Positions 1-6,305 of a stretch of 64,000 nt of DNA are shown here, piece after piece. The DNA lies in assembly GCA_947176505.1 (NCBI GenBank), contig CAMWQW010000017.1, positions 28,829 to 92,828 on the forward strand, given 5' to 3'. Under the pieces are notes generated by a model. That model ran no database searches, was not told the DNA's origin, and saw only the letters and a list, made by a program, of their open reading frames with translations. Numbering within the stretch: position 1 is the stretch's first letter; every line of letters starts with the position of its first letter. The translations under genes and the position numbers were made by a program. Source of the stretch: an uncultured Lachnospiraceae bacterium (lineage in GTDB: Bacteria > Bacillota > Clostridia > Lachnospirales > Lachnospiraceae).

Positions 1-695
1 GGCAGACGATTATTGAACGCCAGATAGAGATGTATCGAAAGTGTGGATTAGACAATATCATCGTAGTCCGTGGATTTGCTGCAGACAAAATAGAGTATGA
101 AGGAGTTACCTATTATACGAATGAGGATTACGCCAATACGAATATGGTAGAGTCTTTGATAGCGGCGAAGTCAGAGTTTGACGATGATGTTATTGTCAGT
201 TATTCTGATATCTTATTTGAAGAGGATATGCTGAAAGCGATGATGAAGTCGGAAGCGGATTTTGCAGTTGCGGTAGATGATAACTGGAAAATATATTGGG
301 AGAAGCGTTACGGCAAGGTGGATTTTGACACGGAGAGCCTCGCTTTGGACGAAAATGATAACATTGTTGAATTGGGACTGGAAAGCCCGAAACTGGAGGA
401 CATTGATGCAAGATATGTCGGTCTGCTGAAATTCTCCAAAACCGGATTGGAACATATTCAGGCTATTATGAATGCGGCATATGCCGATTATGAAGATAAA
501 CCGTGGCAGCAGTCGGGTAAGACGGTGCGTAAGGCATATATGACGGATTTGCTGCAGGCGGTCATTGAATCCGGTCGCCCCGTAAAGGCGGAAAGATTTA
601 ATCACGGCTGGATCGAATTTGATACGAACGAAGACTATGAGAATGCGTGCAGATGGGTCGAAGACGGAAGTATTAATGATGTGATAAGGCTGTAG
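1..695 (+). CDS. Nucleotidyltransferase, LicC/sugar-phosphate type (5' partial)
   Basis: C-terminal part of an NTP-transferase (GT-A fold) that would couple a nucleotide to a sugar- or choline-phosphate. The reading frame is open from base 3, so the start and the N-terminal GxGxR nucleotide-binding loop lie upstream of the window. Visible: a Rossmann-like strand (NIIVVRGFAADKI), the family's YYTNEDYANTNMVESL stretch, and VSYSDILFE, the equivalent of the metal-binding D-x-D strand. The C-terminus has the W-x-E-x-D/N-T substrate segment (HGWIEFDTNEDY). The combination resembles phosphocholine cytidylyltransferases (LicC) and related sugar-1-phosphate nucleotidyltransferases. Which nucleotide and which phosphate are used cannot be told. 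It is probably the upstream member of the glycan locus, separated from it by the 1073-3404 cassette. Confidence 0.8.
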   Translation, partial: QTIIERQIEMYRKCGLDNIIVVRGFAADKIEYEGVTYYTNEDYANTNMVESLIAAKSEFDDDVIVSYSDILFEEDMLKAMMKSEADFAVAVDDNWKIYWEKRYGKVDFDTESLALDENDNIVELGLESPKLEDIDARYVGLLKFSKTGLEHIQAIMNAAYADYEDKPWQQSGKTVRKAYMTDLLQAVIESGRPVKAERFNHGWIEFDTNEDYENACRWVEDGSINDVIRL

Positions 696-740
696 AGAGA
701 ATATATTTGGCAGTTCTAATCGCATATTTAGTTGTAATGA

Positions 741-896
741 ATGCGCCATTTAGCGGCAAGAGAGCGTGGCAGAGTGTCAGAAGATATAGTCGATTATATT
801 ATGGAACATAAAGACTTGAGGATAGCTATACGCATGATACAGCAACGGAAAGTTAGTGAAGAGTTCTGGGCGGAATGCATCAAGAAAATGGAATAG
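741..896 (+). CDS. Possible 51-aa small protein or gene remnant
   Basis: A 51-residue frame opens directly after a stop codon and ends with TAG at 894-896. It reads as a plausible amphipathic helical protein (IVDYIMEHKDLRIAI, then RKVSEEFWAECIKKME). It has no good Shine-Dalgarno sequence, which suggests either a translated small protein coupled to upstream genes or the tail of a decayed gene. The remainder of 696-1072 (377 bases) holds only the promoter-like element at 949-978. No family was recognised. Confidence 0.3.
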   Translation: MRHLAARERGRVSEDIVDYIMEHKDLRIAIRMIQQRKVSEEFWAECIKKME

Positions 897-948
897 GGCA
901 TTATACTAAATGTTGTATCTGTATGCAAAGTTCTGTAATATCTAGCGA

Positions 949-978
949 TTGCCTGTGTGGAAGTGAATGTGATAAAAT
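949..978 (+). promoter_or_regulatory. Predicted sigma-A promoter for the 1073-3404 cassette
   Basis: TTGCCT at 949-954 and TAAAAT at 973-978 are separated by 18 bases, about 95 bases upstream of the 1073 gene. Spacing and hexamers fit a housekeeping promoter; no experimental support. Confidence 0.45.
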
Positions 979-1072
979 ATAGTTTAACCGCCATTTTATT
1001 ATTGTTTATTAGTGGCAAGGACGGTAGAGTGTAGTCATCGATTAGAGAGCAGACAGAAGGATAGCTGATGTA

Positions 1073-1591
1073 ATGGAAGAGGAAGAATTGAAGGCTTTGA
1101 AGTACTGCTTGCAGTTTTCGAAGAAGGCATATGAACAGGAGACAGAACGTCAAAGGCATGCAATGGGTAAAGCAGATTATTTGCTTAAATATTTGACGTT
1201 GCTGATGACTGCCTTCAATATTACGATATCTGTGGTTTCTAAGATGAGCAGCGTTCATATCGTCGGGGTTGTCTTTTGGGGGCTATATATGCCGATGCTG
1301 TTATCGGGGATACTAGGTATTATTAGTACCTTGATGATTCAGAAGCCGAGAAAGATAATGAGATTTCCTTCGGGGAAGGAAGAACTGCTAAAGGTACAAC
1401 GTAATCCTTCGGAATATGACACGGAGTGCAAGCGGATTTATCAGGAAATACTTCGGGTAGATAAAATTTGTGACAGACTAAAAGAAAATAATGATAAAGC
1501 AATGAAATGGATTATGACAGGATATATATGCATGGTGGTAATGATTGTTGCTTTTGGAACTTTTATTACTTATGTGATGTGTTTGTCTTAG
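1073..1591 (+). CDS. Three-TM membrane protein with cytoplasmic helices
   Basis: 172 residues, no signal peptide. A charged N-terminal helix (1-34) precedes TM1 (about 35-57) and TM2 (about 62-90), then a charged helical segment (95-143) and TM3 (about 145-170). The arrangement of a closely spaced TM pair, a long helix and another TM resembles small membrane effectors such as SLATT or PycTM proteins of bacterial immune systems, but I see no diagnostic motif and make that comparison only on architecture. It is the first gene of a tight four-gene set (gaps of 25 and 31 bases, then an ATGA overlap) ending in a papain-like peptidase, so its job is probably tied to that enzyme. A holin-like or structural membrane role is an alternative. 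Confidence 0.6.
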   Translation: MEEEELKALKYCLQFSKKAYEQETERQRHAMGKADYLLKYLTLLMTAFNITISVVSKMSSVHIVGVVFWGLYMPMLLSGILGIISTLMIQKPRKIMRFPSGKEELLKVQRNPSEYDTECKRIYQEILRVDKICDRLKENNDKAMKWIMTGYICMVVMIVAFGTFITYVMCLS

Positions 1592-1616
1592 ACAATTAGA
1601 CTTGTGGAGAAGAGTT

Positions 1617-1760
1617 ATGCAAGATACCAAAGCAAAGGAACAGAATGCTGAAGAAGAGCAGAACGGTCATGATAAGCCGATTTTTCCATTTATTGAGGAC
1701 TGTACAATCGAGGAAGACTACGAGCAGATTGAGATGGAAGAGGCATATCAAGGGTTTTAG
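1617..1760 (+). CDS. 47-aa highly acidic small protein
   Basis: ATG at 1617 is preceded by GGAGAAG. The frame ends with TAG at 1758-1760. The product is very rich in Glu and Asp (about 16 acidic residues) with a hydrophobic core segment (PIFPFIEDCTIEEDYEQI) and one cysteine. It has no signal peptide or double-glycine leader, so it does not look like a classical bacteriocin precursor. It sits 25 bases after the membrane-protein gene and 31 bases before the next small gene, inside the cassette that ends with the cysteine peptidase. It could be an inhibitor, a substrate or an assembly partner of the peptidase; none of these can be shown from sequence. Confidence 0.5.
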   Translation: MQDTKAKEQNAEEEQNGHDKPIFPFIEDCTIEEDYEQIEMEEAYQGF

Positions 1761-1791
1761 TAAGATACGACGAATATATTAGGAGGCAGCT

Positions 1792-1977
1792 ATGACACAG
1801 GCGCAGTTACAGGAAGAACAAATTTATCAGCAATTAAAAAAGTGTATGGATGAGTATAACTCCGATTTTGAAGGCGCTCTTAGACGTTCTGAGGAAATTG
1901 CGGAAGATGAGAGAAAGCGAGCAGAGCGGGCGAGCAGAGATTGGGAAGCGCTGGAAAGGTTTGGTTTGATTTTATGA
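1792..1977 (+). CDS. 61-aa charged helical small protein
   Basis: An AGGAGG site lies just before the ATG. The 61 residues are almost entirely predicted helix with alternating Glu, Lys and Arg (EEIAEDERKRAERASRDW), typical of a coiled-coil or adaptor peptide. The stop codon overlaps the start of the peptidase gene as ATGA (1974-1977), so the two are translationally coupled and probably made in similar amounts. No family was recognised. It could be a chaperone, antitoxin-like inhibitor or docking subunit for the peptidase. Confidence 0.6.
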   Translation: MTQAQLQEEQIYQQLKKCMDEYNSDFEGALRRSEEIAEDERKRAERASRDWEALERFGLIL

Positions 1978-3404
1978 AAAATGATGAAATATTCCAAAGC
2001 GGGTTTCAAGGATTCTGTTCAGGCAATCTTGCCCGCGCGATTCAACTGGCGTTTCCGTCGATGTTTCCTGACTTAGCCCAACTTAGAGAAGAAATTGATA
2101 AGGTTATTTTTCCGAGATTAGATTTTATGGTGGGAAGTGAAGAGAACGCATTTTCCTTTTTGTTTGAAGCACGCTATGTGGAAACAGAATGGAAAGATAT
2201 GGTTGGTATGCACTATATCAACACGTCTTATGAAGTTGAAAATACTGTAATGAGAATCCATCTTTTTAAAAAGAAAAAGGTGAGTGAGAAGCATTATAGG
2301 GGATGTTTTACGATGAGGACAATCAATGAGGCGCGTATTATGCTTTCCTATATTTATCCTAATTGGAAATATGTGGCTTACCATGGCAGTGCATTGAATG
2401 TGATGACTTACCAGAAAAAAGTGCATCTTTATGGAAAGGAAATCACATTTTGTACATATCCTCTTTTTGCACAAGATAATACCGTGGTGGCATGCGCACA
2501 GGCATGTCTTGTTTCTATGTCTAAGTATTTGCATTCACAATATGATTATGCGAAAATACAGATTAGAAATATTAATGACTCGTATCACTCAAATAAAACT
2601 AAAGTATATCCATCTTCCGGACTTTTATCGACACAGATGCTTGAGATACTATCCAGTTACAATATACCTTGCGGATATCAAGTGTATCATGAACAGGAGG
2701 AATTCAAAGAATACATTGATTATTGTATAGAAAGTGCAATTCCGGTACTGGTAGGGATTCATGTGCAGGAAGAGAATGTCAATACCTCTGCAAAGGGTAA
2801 AGGAAGGAAAAATATATGCGAAAATAAGATTGGCAGACATGTGGTACAGATTATTGGACATTCTGACGTGAATATAGAGAAAAGGTATGTTGTATATGAC
2901 GACTCGGGATATTATCTGAGACACTTAGGAGAAGAGGGGTTCGTAAGATGTGTGCCGTGGGAAACTTTACGCGATAGTTTGCAACGGGACAAAAGCTTTA
3001 TCATTTATCCTATTCATGAAAAAGTATATATTTTGTATGATAACTTTAAAAAGCATGTGGATGATATGCTGTGTAGATACCGACGGGATGGTGTGACTAC
3101 GGATGGAATCGTAGAACGGGAAGGAAGGGCATTGCTTGTAGATAATAGGGTGGTAAAGCAGTTTCTACGTGAACAAATGGTAGATGCTCATGAGATAAAT
3201 GTGAATGTTCAGGAGGAGGCGCGGCGAATTCTTGGTATGGACATGCCGCATTATCTTTGGTGCTATGAATATTATACGCCTATGGGCAAAGCGTTGTTTA
3301 TTGCGGATCCCACATATATCAGAAGCACAACCAAAAGCATTTTTTTGAATAAAGAACCTTTAATCAGCAGAGGTCAGATTAGTTTATTACGATATGATGA
3401 TTAA
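1974..3404 (+). CDS. Papain-like (C39-like) cysteine peptidase
   Basis: 476 residues from the ATG at 1974. This start is chosen over an upstream in-frame ATG at 1941 because it gives an ATGA overlap with the preceding gene. The central domain carries the papain-fold signature: Gln167 as oxyanion-hole candidate, Cys174 in CAQACLVSM as nucleophile, His289 in GRHVVQIIGH and Asp309/Asp310 in VVYDDSG. A loop before His289 is long and basic. The N-terminal 150 residues and the C-terminal 140 residues match nothing I recognise. There is no signal peptide and no ABC-transporter fusion, so it is not a bacteriocin-exporting C39 transporter; it should act in the cytoplasm. Last gene of the cassette with the three-TM protein and two small proteins. 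Substrate unknown. Confidence 0.65.
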   Translation: MKNDEIFQSGFQGFCSGNLARAIQLAFPSMFPDLAQLREEIDKVIFPRLDFMVGSEENAFSFLFEARYVETEWKDMVGMHYINTSYEVENTVMRIHLFKKKKVSEKHYRGCFTMRTINEARIMLSYIYPNWKYVAYHGSALNVMTYQKKVHLYGKEITFCTYPLFAQDNTVVACAQACLVSMSKYLHSQYDYAKIQIRNINDSYHSNKTKVYPSSGLLSTQMLEILSSYNIPCGYQVYHEQEEFKEYIDYCIESAIPVLVGIHVQEENVNTSAKGKGRKNICENKIGRHVVQIIGHSDVNIEKRYVVYDDSGYYLRHLGEEGFVRCVPWETLRDSLQRDKSFIIYPIHEKVYILYDNFKKHVDDMLCRYRRDGVTTDGIVEREGRALLVDNRVVKQFLREQMVDAHEINVNVQEEARRILGMDMPHYLWCYEYYTPMGKALFIADPTYIRSTTKSIFLNKEPLISRGQISLLRYDD

Positions 3405-3413
3405 GAAGGTGAT

Positions 3414-3449
3414 ATGATGAAAACAAACCCAGAAAGGACACCCGCATGA
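3414..3449 (+). other. 11-codon leader mini-ORF before the IspD-like gene
   Basis: ATG at 3414 follows AAGAAGGTG and opens an 11-codon frame (MMKTNPERTPA). Its TGA overlaps the ATG of the next gene as ATGA (3446-3449). It may couple translation of the glycan operon to upstream ribosomes. It may also be chance, as the next gene has its own AAGGA site. Confidence 0.25.
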
Positions 3450-4168
3450 ACATAGCCCTAATCTTAGCCGGCGGAACAGATCCGGATTTCCAGATGAGCG
3501 TTCCCAAACAATTTGTAAACGTTTTCAACCGCCCGGTCATTACATATACATTAGAGAAATTTCAGAATCATAAGGATATTGACGCCATTATGGTGGCATG
3601 TCTGGACGGCTGGCAGGAAATGGTGAAAACCTATGCCAAGCAGTTTAACATTGACAAGCTGAAATGGGTGATATCCGGCGGTAAAGACGGACAGGCTTCT
3701 GCGGGCAACGGAATCATGGCACTGCGAAAAGAATGCAGGGATGACGACGTGATTATCGTGCATGATGCAATCAGACCGCTTGTATCGGAGGAAATCATTA
3801 CGGACAGCATCAAGGTATGCAGGCAGCATGATATGGGAGTTGCCGCAATGAGGACCATGGACACCATCATGCATACTAAAGATGGAAAGGTCGGGACGAG
3901 CAGTATTTCACGTTATTCCGTCATCCGAATCCAAACTCCGCAGGCATATCGGATGGATAGATTGGCGGATATCCAAGCCAAAGCTATAGAAGCCGGTATT
4001 ATAGGACAGGTAGACATGAGCAGTGTTGTTTCCAAGTTAGGAGAGCCGGTTTACTTTTCTAAAGGTTCCGAATTTAACATGAAGATTAACACGGTGGAAG
4101 ACGTGGAAATTTTCAAGGCACTGTACAAGATGCAGCAGGACAAGGAGAAAGAAGAAAATAGAGAATGA
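3446..4168 (+). CDS. IspD-like cytidylyltransferase with altered nucleotide loop
   Basis: 240 residues of the IspD/TarI family, which attach CMP to a polyol or sugar phosphate. Conserved parts: LILAGG at the start, PKQF (20-23), VHDAIRPLV (substrate/metal strand) and RIQTPQAYR. The phosphate-binding loop is unusual: where the next gene has GGSGSR (9-14), this one has GGTDPD, so Arg14 becomes Asp14. That Arg normally contacts the NTP phosphates. The protein may use a different substrate, or be a non-catalytic partner. It overlaps the next gene, a close paralogue, by four bases, suggesting a hetero-oligomer. First glycan-operon gene downstream of the peptidase cassette. Confidence 0.75.
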   Translation: MNIALILAGGTDPDFQMSVPKQFVNVFNRPVITYTLEKFQNHKDIDAIMVACLDGWQEMVKTYAKQFNIDKLKWVISGGKDGQASAGNGIMALRKECRDDDVIIVHDAIRPLVSEEIITDSIKVCRQHDMGVAAMRTMDTIMHTKDGKVGTSSISRYSVIRIQTPQAYRMDRLADIQAKAIEAGIIGQVDMSSVVSKLGEPVYFSKGSEFNMKINTVEDVEIFKALYKMQQDKEKEENRE

Positions 4169-4875
4169 ATGTAGCAGTGTTACTGGCGGGAGGAAGCGGT
4201 TCCAGAACGGAGCAGGACGTCCCGAAGCAGTTTATGAATGTTTATGATAAACCTATTATGATATATACATTGGAGGCATTCCAACAGCATCCGGACATCG
4301 ACAGCATCATAGTGGCATGTCTGGACGGCTGGCAGACGATTCTTGAGGCATATGCAAAGGAAGCCGGCATTACGAAAATACAGTATATCGTAAAGGGCGG
4401 AGAGAACGGGCAGGAATCAGCCAGAAACGCATTAGATGCGCTTAAAGGAATCTGCAAAGAGGATGATATTGTTATTATTCATGACGCCGTCCGCCCGATG
4501 GTTTCTGCAGAGATTATATCCGATTGCATCGTGAAATGCAGGAAGTACGGTTCCGGACTTGCAGCCGTGAGATGTCAGGAAACGATTGTCAGGACGCAGG
4601 ATGGAGTGAAAGGCGATGCATACGTTAAGCGGAAGGGTATCATGCGCGTGCAGACACCGCAGGCTTACCGATACGGGAAGGCGTTTCATGCGCATGAAGA
4701 GGCGCTTAAACAGGGGATTTACGACGTCGTCTATACGAATATATTAATGCTGGATATGGGAGAGACATTGTATTTTTCTAAAGGCTCCGAGAAAAACATT
4801 AAGATAACAACTATGGAGGATGTAGAGATATTTAAAGCATTGTATCGTGTGAAGAAAGAAGATTGGGTAAAATAA
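4165..4875 (+). CDS. IspD/TarI-like cytidylyltransferase
   Basis: 236 residues, with the full family signature: LLAGGSGSR (6-14), PKQF (20-23), IHDAVRPMV and RVQTPQAYR. It is probably a CTP:polyol- or sugar-phosphate cytidylyltransferase (ribitol-5-phosphate or similar) rather than the housekeeping MEP-pathway enzyme, because it sits in a glycan operon next to a CDP-glycerol-phosphotransferase-like gene and a near-identical-length paralogue. Translation is coupled to the paralogue by ATGA (4165-4168). It would supply a CDP-activated donor in the cytoplasm. The exact alditol or sugar is not determinable. Confidence 0.8.
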   Translation: MNVAVLLAGGSGSRTEQDVPKQFMNVYDKPIMIYTLEAFQQHPDIDSIIVACLDGWQTILEAYAKEAGITKIQYIVKGGENGQESARNALDALKGICKEDDIVIIHDAVRPMVSAEIISDCIVKCRKYGSGLAAVRCQETIVRTQDGVKGDAYVKRKGIMRVQTPQAYRYGKAFHAHEEALKQGIYDVVYTNILMLDMGETLYFSKGSEKNIKITTMEDVEIFKALYRVKKEDWVK

Positions 4876-6305
4876 TCGCAATTTCTGCCGATATAATATA
4901 TAGTGCTGTGTGTGAAAATGGCACGAGAGGGGAAAACGGTTCGATGCGCAGGTGTCAGAAGCTTCAGATGTTACTAGATATTTCCGGTCTGCATATGATA
5001 CATCAGCAGAACAAAGGGAAATTGCTGCAAAAAGAATACCAGTCTATTCTTGATGCGCTGGCTGATTGTCAGAGAATTGCTATCGAGATAGGGGAGAGCA
5101 TTGAACAGACAGAAGGTGAAGACAAAGAAATAGACGCCGTTCGATTTCTGGAACAATATTGTGAGACTCTTTATCAAGTGAGTCTGCAGTTGGAAGAGAT
5201 TTCGGCGGAAGATTTATATGGGACACTGGAAGAAGCACTGCGCTTTGTGGAAGAGGCAATTGTTGTAATGCCCGTAAGGAAAGAAATTGTTTTTCTGCCA
5301 TACAAAGCGAGTATGTGGGACTCTTTGGAAAGTGTCTATTTTGCTGCCGCACGGGACGAGAACTGCGATGCCTATGTAGTGCCGATTCCGTATTATGACA
5401 GAAAAGCGGATGGAGGCCTTGGGGAAATGCATTATGAGGGCGGTGAATATCCGAAGAATATCCCCATCACTCATTACGAAGAATATCATCTGGAAGAAAG
5501 ACATCCGGATGCAATCTATATTCACAATCCCTATGATGGTAATAACTATGTCACATGCGTACCGGAGAGGTACTTTGCCAGCAGGCTTAGGAATTATACT
5601 GATCAGTTGGTATACATTCCGTACTTTGTTTTGGATGAAATCAAACCGGATGACCATGAGAAAATCGAGAAATTTAAAAATTTGTGTCTTATGCCGGGCG
5701 TAATTTACGCGCATAAAGTCATTGTTCAGTCGGAAAACATGCGCCAGATTTATATCAATGAATTTCTGAAAAACGCGGAATGGCTCACAGATTACATGGG
5801 CTATTTCGACCGAAAGAAGCTGGAGGATAAAATACTGGCGCTTGGTTCGCCGAAATTTGACAGAGTACGCAACACGAATAGAGATACGCTGGAGGTTCCG
5901 GATGAATGGCTAAGGCTTATTGAGAAGCCTGACGGAACATGGAAGAAGATTATTCTGTATAATACAAGTGTCAACGCTTTTTTTCAGTATAATGAGAAGA
6001 TGATTACGAAAATAAAATCTGTTTTTGTAAAGTTCAAGGAGGCGCAGGAGAATGCAGTACTTCTCTGGCGTCCCCATCCGCTTATATCCGGCACGCTGCG
6101 GACTTTAAGACCGCAGCTTTTGGCGGAGTATGAGCAGCTCGTAGAGGAATACCGGAAGGAAGGATATGGTATCTACGATGACACCGCCGATGTTGATAGG
6201 GCAATCGTATTAAGCGATGCTTATTTCGGAGACTATAGCAGCTTGGTGCAGTTATATCAGGCGACAGGGAAACCGGTAATGATAGAAGACGTGGAAGTGC
6301 TGTAG
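4863..6305 (+). CDS. CDP-glycerol/polyol phosphotransferase-like GT-B protein
   Basis: 480 residues if the TTG at 4863 is used; an ATG at 4944 preceded by AGGGGA is an alternative start. The C-terminal half resembles the TagB/TagF family: LLWRPHPL near residue 400 and DAYFGDYSSLVQLYQATGKPV near the end, the family's donor-phosphate-binding pattern. The N-terminal 150 residues are helical and divergent. It would transfer a glycerol- or polyol-phosphate from a CDP donor, fitting the two cytidylyltransferases directly upstream (13-base overlap with the second). No membrane anchor is seen, although many family members bind the membrane peripherally. Substrate identity is inferred from context. 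Confidence 0.65.
   Translation: MGKIIAISADIIYSAVCENGTRGENGSMRRCQKLQMLLDISGLHMIHQQNKGKLLQKEYQSILDALADCQRIAIEIGESIEQTEGEDKEIDAVRFLEQYCETLYQVSLQLEEISAEDLYGTLEEALRFVEEAIVVMPVRKEIVFLPYKASMWDSLESVYFAAARDENCDAYVVPIPYYDRKADGGLGEMHYEGGEYPKNIPITHYEEYHLEERHPDAIYIHNPYDGNNYVTCVPERYFASRLRNYTDQLVYIPYFVLDEIKPDDHEKIEKFKNLCLMPGVIYAHKVIVQSENMRQIYINEFLKNAEWLTDYMGYFDRKKLEDKILALGSPKFDRVRNTNRDTLEVPDEWLRLIEKPDGTWKKIILYNTSVNAFFQYNEKMITKIKSVFVKFKEAQENAVLLWRPHPLISGTLRTLRPQLLAEYEQLVEEYRKEGYGIYDDTADVDRAIVLSDAYFGDYSSLVQLYQATGKPVMIEDVEVL

Follow-up and report, generated by a model that had tools for sequence, protein, structure and literature searches.

In bacterial gasdermin-protease operons, the gene for a protease adjoins that for a membrane-damaging protein. 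Most peptidases of bacterial conflict systems are trypsin- or caspase-like, transglutaminase-like and papain-like domains being rarer, and SLATT proteins are predicted to be pore-forming effectors, as stated in excerpts of one survey (PMC7159879); an excerpt of a second study describes a trypsin-like protease in nuclease-protease systems (PMC12799240). Here we describe a four-gene operon at positions 1073-3404 of a 64,000-nucleotide stretch (the window) of contig CAMWQW010000017.1, from an uncultured Lachnospiraceae bacterium. It encodes a three-transmembrane (3-TM) protein, an acidic protein, a charged helical-looking protein, and a papain-like peptidase. As the best single reading, held tentatively, we propose a horizontally spread conflict module, probably anti-phage or toxin-antitoxin-like, that is run by proteolysis. 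No literature on this cassette was among the matches listed, in a search with most subscription papers and bioRxiv preprints outside its coverage.

A recurrent four-gene cassette

The genes of the cassette are arranged as follows.

1073..1591, + strand: 3-TM protein, 172 amino acids (aa)
1617..1760, + strand: small protein 1, 47 aa from ATG 1617, very acidic
1792..1977, + strand: small protein 2, helical-looking, 61 aa of which 41% are charged, with FGLIL at the C-terminus
1974..3404, + strand: cysteine peptidase, 476 aa from ATG 1974, C39-like (papain-type) judging from its motif and relatives

The spacings are +25, +31, and −4 bp, the last being an ATGA overlap. A preliminary description, made from the letters of this DNA, had reported four co-directional genes with short gaps, and its strand, lengths, and coordinates were correct. 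The profile search that it proposed for the four proteins returned nothing above a curated cut-off in Pfam or NCBIfam. A simple hydropathy scan gave three TM segments for the 3-TM protein and no such segment for its three companions.

Whether the genes travel together was surveyed by searching genome contigs with the peptidases of the window and of genome G006 as a pair, which yielded seven loci (L027 and the G006 locus, L020, are one and the same contig). By reading of open reading frames (ORFs), five of these close relatives (L020, L025, L026, L028, and L030) carry all four genes intact and in the same order, making six such loci with the window. Therefore, the arrangement is more than a chance one. 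Of the remaining two, L031 is cut by a contig end within the peptidase gene, and L029 has decayed: its TM and small genes survive as fragments, and the start of its peptidase gene is broken. The genomic surroundings of the cassette vary between loci. Within this clade we encountered no peptidase standing alone, no loss of the small proteins, and no change of the catalytic Cys or His.

A profile of the 3-TM protein (in which the L031 row begins at an internal TTG) matched eight of 397 family genomes at E ≤ 0.01, the window's own included. One of them, G566 (1.3e-38), has genes for the TM protein and small protein 1, and behind these a third ORF is cut off by the contig end. Another, G772, has a weaker 3-TM relative (E 2.7e-9), a 209-aa protein at 4985-5614 (− strand) of L109 with no peptidase beside it. 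The remaining five matches (2.7e-4 to 0.008), three of which were read, were not counted as relatives. In the genus, the profile matched two of 77 genomes, the same two that carry the close peptidase.

The best Pfam match of the 3-TM protein was DUF4064 (E 0.00077; 20.1 bits, under its cut-off of 32.1). The distribution of charges suggests an N-in topology with a putative cytoplasmic stretch of about 60 aa between TM2 and TM3. Among the PADLOC models, which come without cut-offs, weak matches were obtained for the 3-TM protein (CorA 0.0017; PycTM 0.0046) and for the 61-aa protein (PDC-M16B 0.0063), and none for the 47-aa protein or the peptidase at E ≤ 10; a match to '2TM effector' (0.014) appeared in L025 only.

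Two identities for the membrane protein were tried and rejected. For PycTM, a search with PF18967 at E ≤ 0.001 left both G000 and G006 unmatched; apart from the PADLOC match in the window, Pfam listed it at 0.17 in one of seven members, and hhalign against three PycTM sequences gave a probability of 1.6% (E 0.032; reversed or shuffled controls, E 0.25-0.88). For SLATT, PF18181 (SLATT_1) likewise found nothing in G000 or G006, hhalign against eight SLATT_1 sequences gave a probability of 0.3%, and the Pfam scan of the seven members contained no SLATT family.

The peptidase family and its small companion

The fourth gene appears, from its motif and its relatives, to encode a papain/C39-type enzyme with predicted peptidase activity. 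The constellation of Gln167, Cys174, His289, and Asp309 that had been picked out earlier was numbered correctly, and its codons lie at these positions.

2472..2474, + strand: Gln167 codon, invariant in 22/22; the papain-like order suggests an oxyanion-hole role
2493..2495, + strand: Cys174 codon, invariant in 22/22; predicted nucleophile
2838..2840, + strand: His289 codon, invariant in 22/22
2898..2900, + strand: Asp309 codon, invariant in 22/22, as is Asp310

All four residues are kept, in the papain-like order of C39-like cysteine peptidases, in every one of 22 aligned sequences from Bacillota, Bacteroidota, and Pseudomonadota, the window included. The alignment excludes L023 (from G024 and near-identical to L022), the decayed L029, and the cut L031. 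R94, G110, G154, Q167, C174, P213, P257, H289, G295, D309, D310, and W429 were invariant in an alignment of 13 rows and then in that of 22. Peptidase_C39_2 (PF13529) matched 11 of the 22 at E ≤ 1 (seven of 13 members, best 5e-5, and four of nine further members), and only the P. aeruginosa member exceeded its curated cut-off (24.7 versus 24 bits). The window peptidase was unlisted against this family even at E ≤ 10. No sequence match to the peptidase profiles A1 (E ≤ 1) or A6 (E ≤ 10) was found among PDB chains. Beyond the C39-like core, the peptidase carries extra N- and C-terminal regions.

The peptidase is patchily distributed. Counts by profile, each of which includes the window's genome, put its family in nine of 77 genomes of the genus, eight of 397 of the family, and two of 398 of the phylum. 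This sparse occurrence weakens the earlier suggestion that a housekeeping role is equally open. Members were also found by tblastn in four of 72,556 plasmid records (Hymenobacter, Shewanella, Mesorhizobium, and Pseudomonas), among which the window peptidase as query had no match.

In a tree of the 22 peptidases, which was rooted at its midpoint and contained three long plasmid rows, the six 3-TM loci formed a single clade (100/100), set on a long branch. Loci outside it have another third gene. At some it encodes a protein of about 190-230 aa with a winged-helix-like C-terminus, matching HTH_41 in L043 (4.1e-5, just under the cut-off) and more weakly or not at all in the other eight; L016 has another protein with a hydrophobic segment, and at the rest none was noticed. 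The four plasmid copies have an ORF of 52-60 aa located 55-84 bp upstream of the peptidase, and by reading no 3-TM gene was noticed beside them. As the distant peptidases are without the 3-TM and acidic proteins, the pairing of protease and membrane protein is not the constant part. A looser version, with some membrane partner always present, was also rejected: the winged-helix-like partners pass a one-segment hydropathy threshold in five of nine cases, and on the plasmids no such partner came to notice. The partner proteins upstream of the peptidase in L044-L046 (208-232 aa) have, by eye, a common Cys-rich stretch (C...W-x-C...C) near the C-terminal part.

Instead, what looks constant across the family is the peptidase together with a protein of about 52-65 aa, the 3-TM partner being restricted to one clade. 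Reading of 23 loci placed an ORF of 52-65 aa at 21 of them, on the same strand and no more than about 200 bp from the peptidase or partner gene. The exceptions are L021, where the small ORF is on the opposite strand, and L017, where none was found. Small protein 2 of the window fits this ORF in position and size. Picking small ORFs by eye is biased, and a mechanical test was made, which counted ATG ORFs of 48-80 aa with a ribosome-binding-like site within 150 bp. Such ORFs accompanied 13 of 23 peptidases and eight of 99 other long ORFs from the same loci (Fisher p 1e-6, a value made too small by the relatedness of the loci, as are those that follow; some control ORFs may be spurious). The matches at L022, L045, and one of the two at L018 proved to be other ORFs. 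A recount that excludes them and is restricted to the intended small gene gave 11 of 23 (p 3e-5), and outside the 3-TM clade 6 of 16 (p 0.004). Without the ribosome-binding filter the contrast was weak (18 of 23 versus 59 of 99).

The small proteins themselves diverge rapidly. Counterparts of small protein 1 are poorly conserved and occupy the same position in six other aligned loci. In the 3-TM clade, small protein 2 forms one weakly conserved family (16-27% identity to that of the window), with [FY]G near the C-terminus in five of seven; the L020 row begins one codon late. Between clades there was little sign of homology by hhalign, one of six group comparisons (B with C) giving E 0.002. The small proteins of the window had no Pfam match under E 0.1.

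Regulator, flanks, and neighbouring conflict genes

Two further features lie upstream of the cassette.

741..896, + strand: remnant of an XRE-type helix-turn-helix (HTH) regulator, 5'-truncated, a 51-aa C-terminal ORF with the HTH part missing
949..978, + strand: promoter-like site TTGCCT-18-TAAAAT, the second hexamer preceded by TG; consensus match only, in a stretch conserved with G006

The remnant, overlooked in the preliminary description, is 51% identical to residues 88-141 of an intact 142-aa XRE protein (E 6.4e-8), which matches Pfam HTH_3 and is encoded upstream of the same cassette in G006. The cassette in the window may thus be without its usual regulator. DNA similarity to G006 extends from the remnant through the promoter-like site. 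The cassette had been credited with a promoter of its own; this is plausible but weak, the surroundings of the site being conserved while a scan of 690-3600 on both strands gave 18 such sites against 9.8 (standard deviation 3.0) in shuffles. Among the remaining intact loci, none was seen to have an XRE gene.

In the genus, this XRE type matched 11 of 77 genomes. An ImmA/IrrE-looking gene follows it at six of the seven other loci read (three weaker ones were left unread), and it is therefore not specific to the cassette. An XRE of 80% identity is the first gene of another operon in G015, which encodes a RelA_SpoT protein (PF04607, E 2.6e-15) and is possibly a conflict operon of small-alarmone-synthetase-like type. 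This locus (L099, 2272-4658) encodes the XRE type followed by the RelA_SpoT protein of 364 aa and proteins of 70 and 189 aa, the last two without Pfam matches. PADLOC models matching the G006 XRE (HTH_VI 1.5e-9; capH 3.7e-7) may reflect merely a common HTH.

The cassette had been placed between nucleotidyltransferase genes. Downstream this holds, the flank being IspD (PF01128, E 6.2e-32), whereas the upstream 221-aa stretch has no Pfam match and owes its nucleotidyltransferase-type label to reading of the sequence. At 3446-4875 of the window, two IspD-like cytidylyltransferase genes stand in tandem, 48% identical to each other, and such pairs are present in all six genus relatives fetched (L093-L098). 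In a search aimed at an empty cassette site, the tandem IspD DNA was matched in 26 of 77 genus genomes, the LicC-like gene had no tblastn match in the six fetched loci, and the G001 contig stops about 175 bp further on.

Recognised conflict genes stand near five of the 22 peptidase loci, a count without a measured background rate. L025 has SIR2 (8e-106) and HerA (9e-149) genes about 3.3 kb upstream; L048 has genes for a caspase-family protein and for a helicase whose N-terminus is caspase-like; L049 has a TrlF-family ATPase (PADLOC Ppl, 2.6e-31); and the plasmid loci L050 and L051 have multiubiquitin, ThiF, and other genes, the multiubiquitin and ThiF genes lying on the opposite strand at L050 and 575 bp off at L051. 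On the Hymenobacter plasmid (L048, 6583-13584), the caspase-family gene and the DEAD helicase flank the peptidase and its 57-aa companion. This neighbourhood is only suggestive of defence, and plasmid records may carry many conflict genes anyway.

Possible functions and comparison with known systems

The recurrence of the four-gene set in unrelated places, and the position of relatives of its peptidase, each with a small companion gene, near antiviral-type genes on plasmids of distant bacteria, suggest a possible module of defence or of toxin-antitoxin-like type that is as yet undescribed. The constant core would be a C39-like cysteine peptidase and a dedicated helical partner of about 60 aa, joined in the window's clade by the 3-TM and acidic proteins. 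At rest, the small helical protein would occupy or occlude the peptidase, perhaps through its C-terminal tail (FG in several copies), and the acidic protein would restrain the membrane protein. Once a signal of infection or stress upset this complex, the peptidase would cleave one of the small proteins, or else the 3-TM protein within its cytoplasmic stretch, and the 3-TM protein, thus released, would damage or depolarise the membrane. An XRE repressor, broken in the window's genome, would keep expression low. XRE repression, the binding and cleavage partners, the membrane effect, and the response to phage are all predicted here, and the defence function is inferred from genomic context.

A wider proposal seems possible but doubtful: that these loci represent an undescribed protease-based immune or toxin-antitoxin class across Bacillota, Bacteroidota, and Pseudomonadota. 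In such a class a C39-like peptidase would be guarded by a helical protein of about 60 aa, and exchangeable partners (the 3-TM and acidic proteins, another membrane protein, or a winged-helix-like protein) would act as effector or sensor.

The likeness to protease-triggered immunity noted in the preliminary description is favoured circumstantially by the XRE type common to the RelA/SpoT operon, the conflict neighbours, and the patchy spread. Several results weigh against a conflict module. Three family members found no match among 50,697 phage records, nor did three queries against viral contigs. At 17 of the 22 loci no conflict gene was noticed by reading, while scans covered few of their neighbours. 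PADLOC gave no peptidase match for the window (E ≤ 10), L006 (0.01), L048-L051 (0.1), or L045 and L046 (1). The distant peptidases are without the 3-TM and acidic proteins; conversely, no peptidase was found in the G566 assembly, and the 3-TM relative in G772 stands without one. The 3-TM protein failed the PycTM and SLATT_1 tests. The small proteins of the 3-TM clade (A), compared with those of other clades by hhalign, did not score clearly better than reversed controls, and the companion statistics have the weaknesses stated with them.

Among other explanations, the one that survives best, unlikely as we judge it, is a toxin-antitoxin pair in which the peptidase itself is the toxin, cutting host or phage proteins; small protein 2 would be a labile antitoxin, and the 3-TM protein an anchor or sensor. 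It would account for a peptidase and small ORF that are widespread, plasmid copies included, while the 3-TM partner occurs in one clade only, and it agrees with the XRE-type regulator of G006. However, the TM and acidic genes are retained in the five other intact loci of the clade, which suggests that they matter, and the small proteins of the window resemble no Pfam family at the threshold given above.

Also improbable is a non-defence role in surface or stress regulation, with proteolysis of the membrane protein tuning surface glycans. By reading, the window, L017, and L022/L023 sit among glycan genes, but other copies lie between unrelated core genes, which were identified by reading the sequence as ribosomal or elongation-factor (L042), ATP synthase (L044), and flagellar (L018) genes. 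Presence in so few genomes of the genus, nine of 77, likewise argues against such a role.

We give distinctly less credence to peptide maturation, in which the C39-like peptidase would trim the small proteins as precursors and the membrane protein would handle them, in the style of bacteriocins or signal peptides. The Peptidase_C39-type match and the fast evolution of small ORFs adjoining the enzyme fit this scheme, and defence neighbours are compatible with it, as lanthipeptide genes are reported near defence systems (PMC12715929). On the other side, the cassette is without an ABC exporter, a GG pair occurs in just two of 22 small proteins (L045 and L046), and the 3-TM gene is absent at distant loci. 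Least probable of all, and very unlikely, is protein-modifier handling, in which the small protein would serve as a tag resembling Pup or ubiquitin, or the peptidase would strip tags off: papain-like folds include deubiquitinases, and L050 and L051 adjoin multiubiquitin and ThiF genes, but the strand and distance of these genes leave room for a merely shared island, the small proteins have no conserved C-terminus, and such genes were not noticed by reading, with no search made, at the other 20 loci.

If a proteolytic conflict module is the correct explanation, the bacterial conflict systems gain a peptidase of papain/C39 type that has its own small partner, in a compact four-gene system in which control by tiny proteins is directly testable. 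It would also mark loci in three phyla where the PADLOC scans gave no peptidase model.

Compared with described families, the enzyme has the Gln-Cys-His-Asp order of Peptidase_C39_2 and a core that matches it at E ≤ 1 in half of the members, one of them above the cut-off, and differs in the unlisted window protein, in its extra terminal regions with invariant R94, G110, and W429, and in its small-protein partner. PycTM and SLATT resemble the 3-TM protein in layout only, as short helical membrane proteins with a TM hairpin and further helices; unlike them, the cassette is without a nucleotide-signal enzyme, and the 3-TM protein is without a significant profile match. In the place of the gasdermin of gasdermin-protease operons, no gasdermin-like protein was noticed in the cassette, which has the 3-TM protein instead. 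The nuclease-protease pairs of Hachiman, AVAST, and Lamassu combine a trypsin-like protease with a metallo-β-lactamase-fold nuclease, as described in an excerpt of PMC12799240, whereas the cassette combines a C39-like peptidase with small and membrane proteins. In those pairs, according to the same excerpt, a protease gene travels into several contexts with the protein that it activates, and the peptidase gene described here likewise travels with putative targets.

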